A stretch of 20,794 nucleotides of DNA, from the IMG/VR virus record IMGVR_UViG_3300020200_000228, positions 1 to 20,794 of that record; one strand, 5' to 3'. Source of the stretch: a virus. The notes beneath the pieces are model-generated. The model saw only the letters and a list, made by a program, of their open reading frames with translations, made no database searches and had not been told where the DNA came from. Both the position numbers and the translations under genes were made by a program. How positions within the stretch are numbered: the first letter of the stretch is position 1; the number at the start of each line of letters is the position of its first letter. Shown one piece after another: positions 4,146 to 16,033 of the stretch.

Positions 4146-4469
4146 ATGAAAACAATAGCAGAGCAAATTAAATGGGATTTCAAAACCAATGGTAGCTTGA
4201 AAATATTGGATAAGAATGGTAATCAAATATACATTGAGGCTTCAAATGGAGGTTGGTCAAAACATGAATATGATTCTAAAGGCAATCTAATCTATATTGA
4301 GACTTCAGCTGAAGGTGGATTTTGGAGAAAGCATGAATATGATTCTCAAAATAATCTAATCTATTGGGAGGATTCAAACGGTCTGTGCGGAATCGTTCCA
4401 TGGGAGGATTCAAACGGTGAAATCGAAGACTTCGATTTCGAAATCGAAGATAACCGATTGGCGGAGTAA
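4146..4469 (+). CDS. YD-repeat-like protein, 107 residues
   Basis: The N-terminal MKTIAEQIKWDF is shared with the product at 7286. It is followed by units of about 21 residues with the pattern G-x-W-x-K-x-E-Y-D-S-x-G-N-x-I-Y-x-E: two clear units (residues about 36-78) and two WEDSNG fragments. The pattern resembles the YD repeats of RHS/wall-associated proteins, which fold as beta hairpins wrapped in series. The last 15 residues are acidic (EIEDFDFEIED). At DNA level an 18-base direct repeat (4365-4382 and 4401-4418) and a 20-bp palindrome (4430-4449) mark this end as recently rearranged. Function unknown. Confidence 0.75.
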   Translation: MKTIAEQIKWDFKTNGSLKILDKNGNQIYIEASNGGWSKHEYDSKGNLIYIETSAEGGFWRKHEYDSQNNLIYWEDSNGLCGIVPWEDSNGEIEDFDFEIEDNRLAE

Positions 4470-6417: not shown

Positions 6418-6426
6418 TTGTTGCTA

Positions 6427-7176
6427 ATGGATATAGAAAAACTTAAATACGAAGCACAAAACAAGGCATTGCATATAGCCGATGTTAGTGGCAGTGCTTT
6501 GTTCAATGCGGATTGTATGGATATTTTACCTCTTATTCCTGATGAAAGTGTTGATGTAATTTTAACAGACCCACCCTACAATATAGGATATGCTGATTGG
6601 GATAAATTCTTTCACATACCTAAAATAACAAAGGAATGGTATCGAATACTAAAACCTAATGGCTCTGTATTTTGTTTTGCGGGGTGGAGTTTTGTATGCA
6701 ATGTAATCAATGAATTTGATAAAGGATTTAAACTAAATGATTGGATAATTTACGATAGAATAAAAGGTAGGGGTGGAAAAAAAAGGATGGTATCAACAAG
6801 AGAAGATTTATTGTGGTATGTAAAATCAAATGAATGGGTATTTAATAAAGATAATGCATATAGCACTATAAAGAAAAAAACAAAGGGGATGGGTGAGAAA
6901 AACGGCAGAAATACAAGGGCATTGTCTAATGTGTGGACTGATATTTCACCAATCGTACCTTGGTCTAAAGAAAGAAACGAACACCCTACTCAAAAACCTT
7001 TACAAATAGGTGAAAGAATTTTAAATGTGTTTTCAAATAGCGGGTCTGTAATTTTGGATTGTTATGCGGGAAGCGGAACATTTTTAGTAGCAGCAAAAAA
7101 TAAAGGAAACACTTTTATTGGGATTGAAAAAGATGTAAAATATTATGATTTGGCGGTTGCCCGTGTGTTCGGGTAG
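6427..7176 (+). CDS. DNA (adenine-N6) methyltransferase, beta class
   Basis: 249 residues from the ATG at 6427 (a TTG at 6418 is in frame but not needed). Motif IV DPPY is at residues 48-51, preceded by VDVILT; HPTQKP is at 186-191; motif I appears as LDCYAGSGT at 210-218, followed by FIGIEKD. The order catalytic motif, target-recognition region, AdoMet-binding motif is that of beta-class N6/N4 methyltransferases (Pfam N6_N4_Mtase). DPPY favours N6-adenine. No restriction endonuclease stands beside it, so it is probably an orphan that protects phage DNA. Recognition site unknown. It is followed 36 bases later by a promoter. Confidence 0.92.
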   Translation: MDIEKLKYEAQNKALHIADVSGSALFNADCMDILPLIPDESVDVILTDPPYNIGYADWDKFFHIPKITKEWYRILKPNGSVFCFAGWSFVCNVINEFDKGFKLNDWIIYDRIKGRGGKKRMVSTREDLLWYVKSNEWVFNKDNAYSTIKKKTKGMGEKNGRNTRALSNVWTDISPIVPWSKERNEHPTQKPLQIGERILNVFSNSGSVILDCYAGSGTFLVAAKNKGNTFIGIEKDVKYYDLAVARVFG

Positions 7177-7285: not shown

Positions 7286-7681
7286 ATGAAAACAATAGCG
7301 GAACAAATCAACTGGGATTTCAATAGGAATGATAACTTGGAAATTCGGGACAAAAATCATAACCCAATTTACTTTGAAAATCGGAATGGGGATTGGTATA
7401 AATGGAGATATGATTCCAACAGAAATGAGATATATCTTGAAACTTTCAATGGAGATTGGTCAAAGCGGGAGTATGATTCCGAAAATAATCTAATTTACTT
7501 TGAGGATTCGCATGGAGATTGGTCAAAGTGGGAATTTGATTCAAACGGAAATCAAATCTACCACAAAGATTCGTATGGGTATTGGTCAACTCGGGAGTAT
7601 GATTCTAACGGCAATAGTATCTACTTTGAGGATTCAAATGGTGTAATCAAAGACAACCGACCAAAACCCTATAAGGTCTAG
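7286..7681 (+). CDS. YD-repeat-like protein, 131 residues
   Basis: Begins MKTIAEQINWDF like the product at 4146. From residue 35 it contains four regular 21-residue units (GDWYKWRYDSNRNEIYLETF, GDWSKREYDSENNLIYFEDS, GDWSKWEFDSNGNQIYHKDS, GYWSTREYDSNGNSIYFEDS) and ends in a basic tail, DNRPKPYKV, where its paralogue is acidic. The repeats resemble RHS-type YD repeats and should form stacked beta hairpins. There is no secretion signal, so it acts inside the cell or in the virion. It is followed 2 bases later by the HNH endonuclease gene. Confidence 0.78.
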   Translation: MKTIAEQINWDFNRNDNLEIRDKNHNPIYFENRNGDWYKWRYDSNRNEIYLETFNGDWSKREYDSENNLIYFEDSHGDWSKWEFDSNGNQIYHKDSYGYWSTREYDSNGNSIYFEDSNGVIKDNRPKPYKV

Positions 7682-9548: not shown

Positions 9549-9620
9549 ATCCGTTCTATGGATGGTTCAATTTCATTTAAAATGATTGGTAATAAATTTT
9601 TATTTAATAACGAAGAATAA
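9531..9620 (+). CDS. 29-residue frame, probable by-product of cassette insertion
   Basis: MKVGIVIRSMDGSISFKMIG... The first 15 bases are identical to the start of the SLOG gene at 10846 and lie in the direct repeat; after MKVGI the two diverge. The simplest reading is that this was the original SLOG start, cut off from its gene when the methyltransferase cassette entered. It may still be translated, since its stop lies 4 bases before the methyltransferase ATG and it could couple translation to it. Confidence 0.4.
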   Translation: MKVGIVIRSMDGSISFKMIGNKFLFNNEE

Positions 9621-9624
9621 AACT

Positions 9625-10806
9625 ATGGAAAAAAAATATCAGTTATTCAATGGCAACAATATAGATAAGTTGCGTGAGTTAGAAGATAATTCAGTAGATG
9701 CAGTAGTAACCGACCCGCCGTATGGTTTATCTTTTATGGGTAAGAAATGGGATTATGATGTACCGAGTGTAGAGTTGTGGGCGGAGTGTTTTCGGGTGTT
9801 GAAGCCAGGAGGCCATCTACTTGCCTTCGCAGGAACGAGGACACAGCACCGAATGGCGGTGAGGATTGAGGATGCGGGATTTGAAATCAGAGATATGATT
9901 GCGTGGGTGTACGGTTCAGGCTTTCCCAAGTCTATGGATGTGAGTAAGGCGATTGACAAGGCAGCAGGAGCGGAGCGGGGGGTGGTGGGGCAGCGTACAT
10001 ATTCAGCTCCTGAGATTAAGGGTAATTCATCAAATGGGTGGGGCATAAGTGGGCCAAAAAATGAAGGATTAGAACGTTTAAATGTTCCCATCACCGCCCC
10101 CTCCACCGAAGCCGTAAAGCAATGGGAGGGCTGGGGAACTGCCCTCAAGCCTGCGATGGAGCCGATAACGGTGGCACGAAAGCCGCTGATTGGCACGGTG
10201 GTAGAGAACATCCTGCAACACGGCACAGGTGCGCTGAACATCGATGAATGCAGGGTGGAAGGTGTTGGTGGTATGAAATGGGAAACACCTCGTGGTGGCA
10301 TTTGGACCACAGACAGCAACGCCACTGCGAAGCTGGTGCAGAATGAGCAAGGCCGTTGGCCCGCCAACCTCATTCACGATGGTAGCGATGAGGTGGTGGG
10401 GTTGTTTCCGAGCAACGTAAAAGGCGAAATTGGCAGACAGGGAAGGACTAACGCAGGCAACTACGAGGCAAGCAGTTACAAGGTTGGCATAGTGACTGAA
10501 AATGGCATTAAAGATTCAGGCTCAGCCGCCCGCTTCTTCTATTGCTCAAAAGTAAGTAAAAGTGAAAGGAACGCGGGGTGTGATAATAAACACCCAACTG
10601 TCAAGCCTATTGACCTGATGAGATACCTATGTAAGTTGATAACACCACCCGGTGGAATAGTATTAGACCCGTTTATGGGTAGTGGTTCAACGGGGTGTGC
10701 TGCTTTATTAGATGGTTTTAAGTTTATTGGTATGGAGATGGATAATGAGTATTTTAAGATAGCCGAAGCAAGAATAACCCATTTTAACCCATCAGACTTT
10801 TGGTGA
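9625..10806 (+). CDS. DNA (adenine-N6) methyltransferase, beta class, with mosaic base composition
   Basis: 393 residues from ATG 9625 (an upstream in-frame ATG at 9586 lies inside the previous frame). DPPYG is at residues 30-34 after VDAVVT; a long target-recognition region spans about 100-310; HPTVKP is at 323-328; LDPFMGSGST is at 347-356, then FIGMEMD. DPPY favours N6-adenine. Both ends of the gene are AT-rich like the neighbours, but roughly 9766-10550 is GC-rich: line 10141-10200 has 38 G/C of 60, line 10741-10800 only 20 of 60. This suggests that the core was taken recently from a GC-richer source. No nuclease partner is visible. Confidence 0.93.
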   Translation: MEKKYQLFNGNNIDKLRELEDNSVDAVVTDPPYGLSFMGKKWDYDVPSVELWAECFRVLKPGGHLLAFAGTRTQHRMAVRIEDAGFEIRDMIAWVYGSGFPKSMDVSKAIDKAAGAERGVVGQRTYSAPEIKGNSSNGWGISGPKNEGLERLNVPITAPSTEAVKQWEGWGTALKPAMEPITVARKPLIGTVVENILQHGTGALNIDECRVEGVGGMKWETPRGGIWTTDSNATAKLVQNEQGRWPANLIHDGSDEVVGLFPSNVKGEIGRQGRTNAGNYEASSYKVGIVTENGIKDSGSAARFFYCSKVSKSERNAGCDNKHPTVKPIDLMRYLCKLITPPGGIVLDPFMGSGSTGCAALLDGFKFIGMEMDNEYFKIAEARITHFNPSDFW

Positions 10807-12800: not shown

Positions 12801-12874
12801 GTTCTTGTAGCTCAGCAGGTTAGAGCAACTGACTCATAATCAGTTGGTCGTAGGTTCGAGCCCTACCAGGAACA
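12801..12874 (+). tRNA. tRNA with CAT anticodon (Met or Ile2)
   Basis: Full cloverleaf: acceptor GTTCTTG / CAGGAAC, D stem GCTC / GAGC, anticodon stem ACTGA / TCAGT with loop CTCATAA (CAT), T stem GTAGG / CCTAC with TTCGAGC loop, A at the discriminator. The acceptor start is paired, so it is not an initiator. Elongator Met and lysidine-modified Ile2 cannot be told apart here. CCA is not encoded. Confidence 0.93.
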
Positions 12875-12895
12875 CTAAAGTATGAAAAAATAAAA

Positions 12896-13289: not shown

Positions 13290-13955
13290 GTGAAAATTTA
13301 CTTTGATCATATAAAAGGCTTTGGAAAAATCAGTAATATAGAAGTTATAGTTAATTGCGCTTATGGTATATTAGAATCTAATGAATCTTCTATAGATGCA
13401 TTAAAACAGGGATGGATTCCTTGGAAAGGAAAATGGTATAATGAAAGGAGTACCCGAATAGATTTAAATAAGTACTTCCCATCAAAGACTACTAGAAAAA
13501 TATCAAAGAAAATTATTACACAAATAGGTAATCTATCTACCAAAAAAGAAGAATATTTAGAACTCTATGAAAAGTATTGTGAGTATCATAGGTTTAAGCG
13601 TGATATTGATTTATTATCATTTAAAGATTGTTCGGTTATAGAATACTGGAATGGTAATCTGATAGGGATTAGTTTATATAAAGTTTTTGAAAATCAGTTT
13701 GTAGCATATCAGTTTATATGGGACTATGTTGAACCTAAATTATCTCTTGGTACTGTAGCTCAAATGTATGAATGTGAGACAGCAAGAGCATATGGTTGTG
13801 AATATGTATATTTATTGGGAGGATATGAGAAATGTTGTTTATATAAATCTAACTATTCTGGATTTGAGTTTTGGACCGGTGAAAAATGGTCAACCGATAT
13901 AGAGTTGTATAATTCACTAATAGAACGGGATGAAAAAATTAAAATAGAATTATGA
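13290..13955 (+). CDS. ATE/Bpt-like aminoacyl-tRNA-protein transferase (GNAT-like fold)
   Basis: 221 residues from a GTG start; no other start is available. The C-terminal half (residues 118-200: GNLIGISLYKVFENQFVAYQ, then the segments LSLGTVAQM, ETARAYGCEYVYLLGGYEKC, LYKSNYSGFEFW) matches in order the ATE C-terminal domain of arginyl/leucyl-tRNA-protein transferases (LvaVs..D, SavY.f, SLGt, E...A.elG..Y.YLGY.i..c..m.YK..F.P). The N-terminal half keeps a C-x-Y (C23), GW (41-42), WY...R (49-56) and the FPSKTTRK counterpart of F.PSRSQRR. The CxxC pair of typical family members is absent. Such enzymes add an amino acid to a protein N-terminus and feed N-degron decay. Substrate and activity are unproven. 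The 3' end overlaps the next gene by 4 bases. Confidence 0.72.
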   Translation: MKIYFDHIKGFGKISNIEVIVNCAYGILESNESSIDALKQGWIPWKGKWYNERSTRIDLNKYFPSKTTRKISKKIITQIGNLSTKKEEYLELYEKYCEYHRFKRDIDLLSFKDCSVIEYWNGNLIGISLYKVFENQFVAYQFIWDYVEPKLSLGTVAQMYECETARAYGCEYVYLLGGYEKCCLYKSNYSGFEFWTGEKWSTDIELYNSLIERDEKIKIEL

Positions 13956-14152
13956 AAATCTATGAACCTAAAAATAGGGTAGAAGTAACAACCCCAAAGG
14001 GACCAGGAGTCATTTGGTTGGTTACAGAATATGGATATGAAACCGACACAATCTATACGGTGATAATAAATGAAACCGGCGAATTCTGGCAATATGTTCA
14101 TAAAGATATACGTGCAAAAAATAACATTACATTCAACAGAGATATAAAATAA
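13952..14152 (+). CDS. Hypothetical small-barrel-like protein, 66 residues
   Basis: MKIYEPKNRVEVTTPKGPGV... The whole protein reads as short strands (RVEVTTPKGPGVIWLV; TIYTVIINETGEFWQYV) joined by turns, as in small SH3-like barrels, followed by a charged end. It overlaps the ATE-like gene by ATGA, so the two are translationally coupled and may work together. No family recognised. Confidence 0.7.
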   Translation: MKIYEPKNRVEVTTPKGPGVIWLVTEYGYETDTIYTVIINETGEFWQYVHKDIRAKNNITFNRDIK

Positions 14153-15198: not shown

Positions 15199-15272
15199 GC
15201 GCCCGTAGCTCAGTTGGATAGAGCAACAGCCTTCTAAGTTGTGGGTCAGGGGTTCGAATCCCTTCGGGCGTA
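15199..15272 (+). tRNA. tRNA-Arg (TCT)
   Basis: Acceptor GCGCCCG / CGGGCGT (a G-T pair at the end), D arm GCTCAGTTGGATAGAGC, anticodon stem ACAGC / GTTGT with loop CTTCTAA (TCT), T arm AGGGG-TTCGAAT-CCCTT, discriminator A. It reads AGA codons, which are common in these AT-rich genes. CCA is not encoded. Confidence 0.93.
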
Positions 15273-15287
15273 CTAAAATAAAAAATA

Positions 15288-15948: not shown

Positions 15949-16019
15949 GCGGGTATCGTATAATGGTATTACATTCGCTTTCCAAGCCTATGACGGTGGT
16001 TCGATTCCATCTACCCGCT
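15949..16019 (+). tRNA. tRNA-Gly (TCC) with two anticodon-stem mismatches
   Basis: Acceptor GCGGGTA / TACCCGC perfect, D arm TCGTATAATGGTATTAC, loop TTTCCAA (TCC), T stem GGTGG / CCATC with TTCGATT loop, U73-type discriminator T. In the anticodon stem TTCGC / GCCTA only three of five pairs form; T28-T42 and C29-C41 are mismatched. The other parts look like a normal bacterial tRNA-Gly, so it is real by descent, but its function may be weakened. Confidence 0.85.
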
Positions 16020-16033
16020 CAACAAAACAAACT

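Follow-up and report, generated by a model that had tools for sequence, protein, structure and literature searches.

A 221-residue protein encoded in a 20,794-nucleotide stretch of viral DNA (hereafter the window) belongs to a branch of the ATE/Bpt superfamily that is real and widely distributed among phages, and that is without the ATE_N domain and without many of the residues by which the known enzymes are recognised. Aminoacyl-tRNA-protein transferases of bacteria and eukaryotes are N-degron enzymes. For the phage proteins we suggest, with a probability of about 0.6, an aminoacyl-tRNA-dependent transferase whose acceptor is not the classical protein with an N-terminal Asp or Glu. The gene is the following.

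13290..13955, plus strand: ATE-like transferase reading frame, 221 aa, GTG start

An in-frame TAA lies shortly 5′ of this reading frame, and the start position is common to its relatives. The dN/dS against relatives is 0.08-0.18, thus the gene is real and maintained and its protein is under purifying selection. The sequence-only reading of the window had proposed homology to ATE/Bpt and a comparison with three Pfam profiles. One of them, ATE_C (PF04377), is the sole Pfam family reported for the protein (E = 1.5e-7, 32.5 bits against a cut-off of 25); the other two, ATE_N (PF04376) and LFTR/Aat (PF03588), give no match up to E = 10. The NCBIfam matches are arginyltransferase models only, at 24-34 bits and thus below their equivalog cut-offs of 170-358, and a sequence search of the PDB places yeast ATE1 on top (E = 0.004). 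Every motif that had been quoted from the reading frame is present. The CxxC pair, which had been described as absent, is indeed missing, as the four cysteine columns of Bpt hold no Cys in the whole family. The homology itself is confirmed by PF04377, by a profile match to Bpt and by an ATE1-like fold over the whole length.

In IMG/VR, 55 relatives were retrieved with the single sequence and 412 with an alignment, at identities from 80% down to 28%, and many of them are on contigs of aquatic crAss-like phages. The alignment of 30 family members used here (A1) has 24 invariant columns. ATE_C is matched individually by 27 of these 30 proteins, and its cut-off is exceeded in 16 of 17 large viral contigs. 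When A1 was compared by hhalign with 30 proteobacterial Bpt proteins, the match extended over residues 53-202 (E = 1.3e-14). The annotated phage genomes of the INPHARED collection contain no convincing relative; the best match is host DNA filed as phage and the others are weak. We discarded the "arginyl-tRNA-protein transferase" of Acinetobacter phage MD-2021a, because its neighbors aat, trxB, ftsK, and tuf indicate host chromosome. The region CAKLQH020000030.1 39290-45571 (L163), filed as Acinetobacter phage, is host chromosome with ftsK, trxB, aat, the arginyl-tRNA-protein transferase gene, and tuf. Three matches from bacterial MAGs were not accepted as bacterial genes, since the contigs are short and the gene order is phage-like. 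In the open-access literature searched we found no description of a phage ATE, in agreement with the earlier statement that no such phage system was known, and the main text of a 2021 survey of crAss-like phages (PMC7886860) mentions neither Clp nor arginyl.

The AlphaFold2 model built from A1 has a pLDDT of 83.7 and a pTM of 0.82, with low confidence for residues 10-22. In a Foldseek search human ATE1 comes out on top (E = 1.2e-9), followed by yeast ATE1s, lysyl-PG synthases (MprF), FemX, L-PGS, and LFTR, all of which use aminoacyl-tRNA. The best structural match is thus human ATE1 and not another GNAT family, so that the fold leaves the proposed homology standing. With VIA-align, the model (residues 1..216) superposes on ATE1 (8tzv) over 208 residues with Z = 14.7 and rmsd 4.2, whereas GNAT-only matches reach Z = 11-14 over 120-150 residues. 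The ATE1 match therefore takes in the N-terminal half. We note that certain proteins with one GNAT domain or with two in tandem score only 1 to 3 Z units lower than ATE1. Among these similarities, the acetyltransferases RimI and VipF align at Z = 12.8-14 across the GNAT part, and residues of the GNAT half common to Bpt and ATE1 are replaced in the phage family. Both observations are compatible with a GNAT-fold enzyme which has gone from aminoacyl-tRNA to another acyl donor, or which modifies a nucleobase or a metabolite. We consider this improbable, however, because the N-terminal half aligns with ATE1 too, the basic helix described below is retained, and the acyl-CoA loop motif is missing: in a pattern search, [QR]xxGx[GA] was found in 0 of 29 members and in 0 of 30 Bpt proteins, where a few of the sites matched were other than the intended loop. 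A sequence comparison with Mu Mom by hhalign gave no clear profile similarity (E = 0.38 over 7 residues).

Four segments of the protein are needed for the comparison with the known enzymes.

13410..13457, plus strand: GWIPWKGKWYNERSTR, residues 41-56, which stand where Bpt has GFRRSG...YRPxCxxCxxC (column comparison with A1)
13467..13514, plus strand: NKYFPSKTTRKISKKI, basic segment and helix, residues 60-75, likely counterpart of ATE1 helix alpha-f
13623..13868, plus strand: ATE_C GNAT domain, residues 112-193, with G154, Y174, Y185, and K186 common to Bpt and ATE1
13872..13889, plus strand: W-T-G-x-x-W, residues 195-200, C-terminal motif of the phage family, of which W200 is also in Bpt

Helix alpha-f of ATE1 is the tRNA acceptor-stem helix (PMC10115844). 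Residues 60-75 of the phage proteins carry on average 5.5 K+R and 0.9 D+E per 16 residues, and the values for Bpt are 5.3 and 0.8. Common to the phage family and Bpt, and to ATE1 where seen, are G41, R56, Y96, G154, Y174, Y185, K186, W200, and, nearly so, E193. Missing in the whole family are the four cysteines, GFRRSG, YRP, H118, G121, D160, S167, Y170, K213, and M214 of Bpt. All of these are invariant or nearly so in Bpt, and the last five are also found in three ATE1s. In their place the phage proteins have an invariant set of their own: W49, Y50, and R53, which within residues 41-56 are invariant together with G41 and R56, and further E161, Y179, E180, W195-T-G197, Y207, L210, and D214.

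The phage proteins thus preserve the GNAT half and the basic helix that would contact tRNA, but have exchanged residues on which Bpt and ATE1 agree. The donor is therefore probably still used, and the acceptor is probably another one. This pattern of conservation would most simply be read as a donor side left in place and an acceptor side built anew. The replacement of D160, S167, Y170, K213, and M214 further implies that catalysis itself may have changed. The same pattern, a kept tRNA-contact helix and the loss of residues common to active Bpt and ATE1, would also be expected of a binding protein which transfers nothing and instead sequesters or discharges aminoacyl-tRNA or blocks the host Bpt or Aat. 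We regard this as very unlikely, as the 24 columns stay invariant down to 28% identity and include the polar, pocket-type residues E161, Y179, E180, Y185, and K186, which argues for an active site.

Bpt (PRK01305, PF04376+PF04377) is like the phage family in its ATE_C domain, in the profile match given above, and in the basic helix, and its residues G183, Y203, Y216, K217, R71, Y113, and W231 have counterparts in the phage proteins. In contrast to Bpt, the phage family is without CxxCxxC, GFRRSG, and D160/S167/Y170/K213/M214, and it forms a separate clade with a support of 0.996 in a midpoint-rooted tree of about 80 columns in which ATE1 is represented by fragments. As the phage clade stands apart from Bpt and ATE1 in this short alignment, a recent capture from a host Bpt is somewhat disfavored. 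Eukaryotic ATE1 (8tzv, 7wfx, 8e3s) is the top fold match over nearly the full length, and F-I-W-D, SLGK, and the acidic residue at E161 in the phage family recall the fungal ATE1 sequence. However, ATE1 has about 500 residues as compared to 221, and the phage protein lacks both the zinc cysteines (C20/C23/C94/C95 in yeast) and the variable domain.

LFTR/Aat (PF03588) shares the GNAT aminoacyl-tRNA transferase fold, and its G-x-x-P-W...W-[WY]...R segment is in the same register as the phage residues (GWIPW...WY...R and GIFPW...WWSPDPR). The Trp of FPW is, we presume, Trp49 of E. coli LFTR, located within the aminoacyl-adenosine site. The N-terminal part matches a single Aat with E = 0.008 and a profile of 23 Aat sequences with E = 0.035, both at low probability (1.5% for the profile). 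As the profile comparison is not significant, we did not adopt a descent from LFTR even though the motif is in register. FemX, MprF, and L-PGS are also GNAT-fold users of aminoacyl-tRNA by fold match, but they are tandem GNAT proteins with cell-wall precursors or lipids as acceptors, and no sequence-family match to them was found.

Seven of ten contigs of 102-187 kb with relatives of the gene have the terminase and portal of one strongly matching group. The terminase of this group matches those of crAss-like, Bacteroides, and Flavobacterium phages, at best with about 25% identity over about 90%. The ATE-like gene is also present in unrelated contigs of 180-205 kb. In the window, the large-ATPase gene and the adjoining gene for a 725-aa protein resemble Microcystis phage Mel-JY01 and a 484-kb phage. 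None of the 32 large contigs related by this ATPase has the ATE-like gene, where the contigs may be incomplete and the query did match in other sets. The gene therefore looks acquired in the lineage of the window.

Near the ATE-like gene of some relatives we see, as judged by eye, amidinotransferase-like genes (L053, L054, L131) and S-adenosylmethionine decarboxylase-like genes (L048-L050, L053-L055). A small reading frame with a HELTHQ motif at 789-1181 of the window could encode a metallopeptidase, and several crAss-like relatives have a different HExxH protein directly 5′ of the ATE-like gene (L091:9561-10001). The window further contains the following genes.

6418-7176 and 9586-10806: two N6/N4 DNA methyltransferase genes (PF01555)
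4146-4469 and 7286-7681: two repeat reading frames of the W.K.EYDS.GN.IY.E.S.G type

Homology to Bpt and ATE1 raises the question whether the phage protein is a true N-degron writer. Such an enzyme would extend N-termini by a destabilising residue such as Leu or Arg, and a ClpS encoded by host or phage would deliver the marked proteins to the Clp protease, so that host or phage proteins are removed during infection. ClpS (PF02617 above cut-off) is encoded in 9 of 17 ATE-positive contigs and also in G146, G163, and G164. Counting the large ATE-positive contigs, 10 of 20 encode ClpS, and these span two unrelated phage lineages. In the crAss-like group ClpS is short, matches no PHROG, and has the N-D and, in most cases, also the H that belong to the N-degron pocket; in the other lineage ClpS is full (IND..TTMEFV, IHDDG; 79 bits). 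In the reverse direction, an ATE-like gene is found in 4 of 14 large contigs chosen by ClpS and in 0 of 32 of the independent set chosen by ATPase (p = 0.006, with shared ancestry and no phylogenetic correction). One of these four is, however, a close relative of a known pair and two are short ATE_C-only proteins. Moreover, ClpS is also present in 9 of the 32 independent contigs (28%), so that ClpS is not clearly enriched in the ATE-positive contigs (p = 0.14 against 10 of 20), and several ATE-positive phages have no ClpS on the contig. Among crAss-like contigs chosen by terminase and without an ATE-like gene, 3 of 7 encode ClpS. We therefore do not take ClpS as proof of an N-degron function, the background frequency being too high. 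The loss of GFRRSG, of the four cysteines, and of further residues common to Bpt and ATE1 also speaks against a true N-degron writer, which we consider unlikely.

The counts nevertheless suggest that the ATE-like protein and ClpS may act as writer and reader. In a bolder form, which we hold to be slightly more doubtful still, large aquatic phages including crAss-like ones would possess their own N-degron writer with a rebuilt acceptor site and their own reader ClpS, and would thereby turn the Clp protease of the host on a new substrate class. Large aquatic phage contigs commonly encode ClpS homologs, of no fewer than two sequence types, whether or not an ATE-like gene is present (L170:457-708, L196:10362-10616, L503:1447-1752, L505:1459-1710, among others). 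Two contigs, of 329-352 kb, encode ClpS as well as a short ATE_C-only relative in a frame of about 150 residues (G173:C1:264813-265226, G177:C1:44818-45228). The PDB matches of the ClpS profile are repeat proteins only, which we dismissed as artefacts.

Three tRNA genes are located near the ATE-like gene.

12801-12875: tRNA of Met type, CAT, 0.41 kb from the reading frame
15199-15273: tRNA-Arg, TCT, 1.24 kb from the reading frame
15949-16020: tRNA-Gly, TCC, in addition to the two noted before

The first two distances agree with the 0.4 and 1.2 kb given in the sequence-only reading, which had supposed that the phage uses its own tRNA and had proposed a survey of relatives for tRNA-Arg. This supposition is not supported. 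Within 10 kb of the gene, relatives have tRNAs for Arg(TCT), Met, Tyr, Leu, Ala/Thr, or none. In the ten contigs of 102-187 kb, tRNA-Arg(TCT) is present in only five, and one of these ten, a 115-kb relative, has no tRNA at all. Because of this variability we consider the neighboring tRNAs incidental and have dropped an own tRNA as required partner.

A single conserved neighbor was found.

13952..14152, plus strand: partner reading frame, 66 aa, overlapping the ATE-like stop codon (ATGA at 13952), predicted SH3-like barrel

In a profile search, the partner lies directly 3′ of 64 of 75 distinct ATE-like genes; the deeper clades do not have it, nor does one clade of 60% identity. Conversely, of 80 loci with the partner, the ATE-like gene immediately precedes it in 73 and is lacking in seven, thus the two are not obligate partners. 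At L296:2556-2933 (PF00856) and at L308 a gene for a SET-domain protein, likewise of a protein-modifying family, replaces the ATE-like gene 5′ of the partner. The partner matches no Pfam or PHROG family. Its model is a five-stranded SH3-like barrel (pLDDT 77.6) with only weak fold matches, to tudor, KOW, and KorB domains. The partner could be a substrate, an adaptor, or a neighbor by history. An EF-P-like modification of its lysine 16 was rejected, since the position is variable and is R or N in some members.

Returning to the transferase with a changed acceptor, we suggest that the reaction would proceed as follows. Aminoacyl-tRNA from the host pool, or from that of the phage, would be bound via the basic helix and the GNAT half. 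The amine that then receives the amino acid would belong to an acceptor different from the classical protein with N-terminal Asp or Glu. A protein would be the most likely acceptor, and a phage protein synthesised concurrently, for example the 66-aa partner, is one possibility.

An enzyme in which the donor half is kept and the other half is rebuilt would show how such enzymes change their substrate, and being a small protein without a metal site it is amenable to testing. If the link to ClpS is true, it would reveal how phages steer regulated proteolysis.
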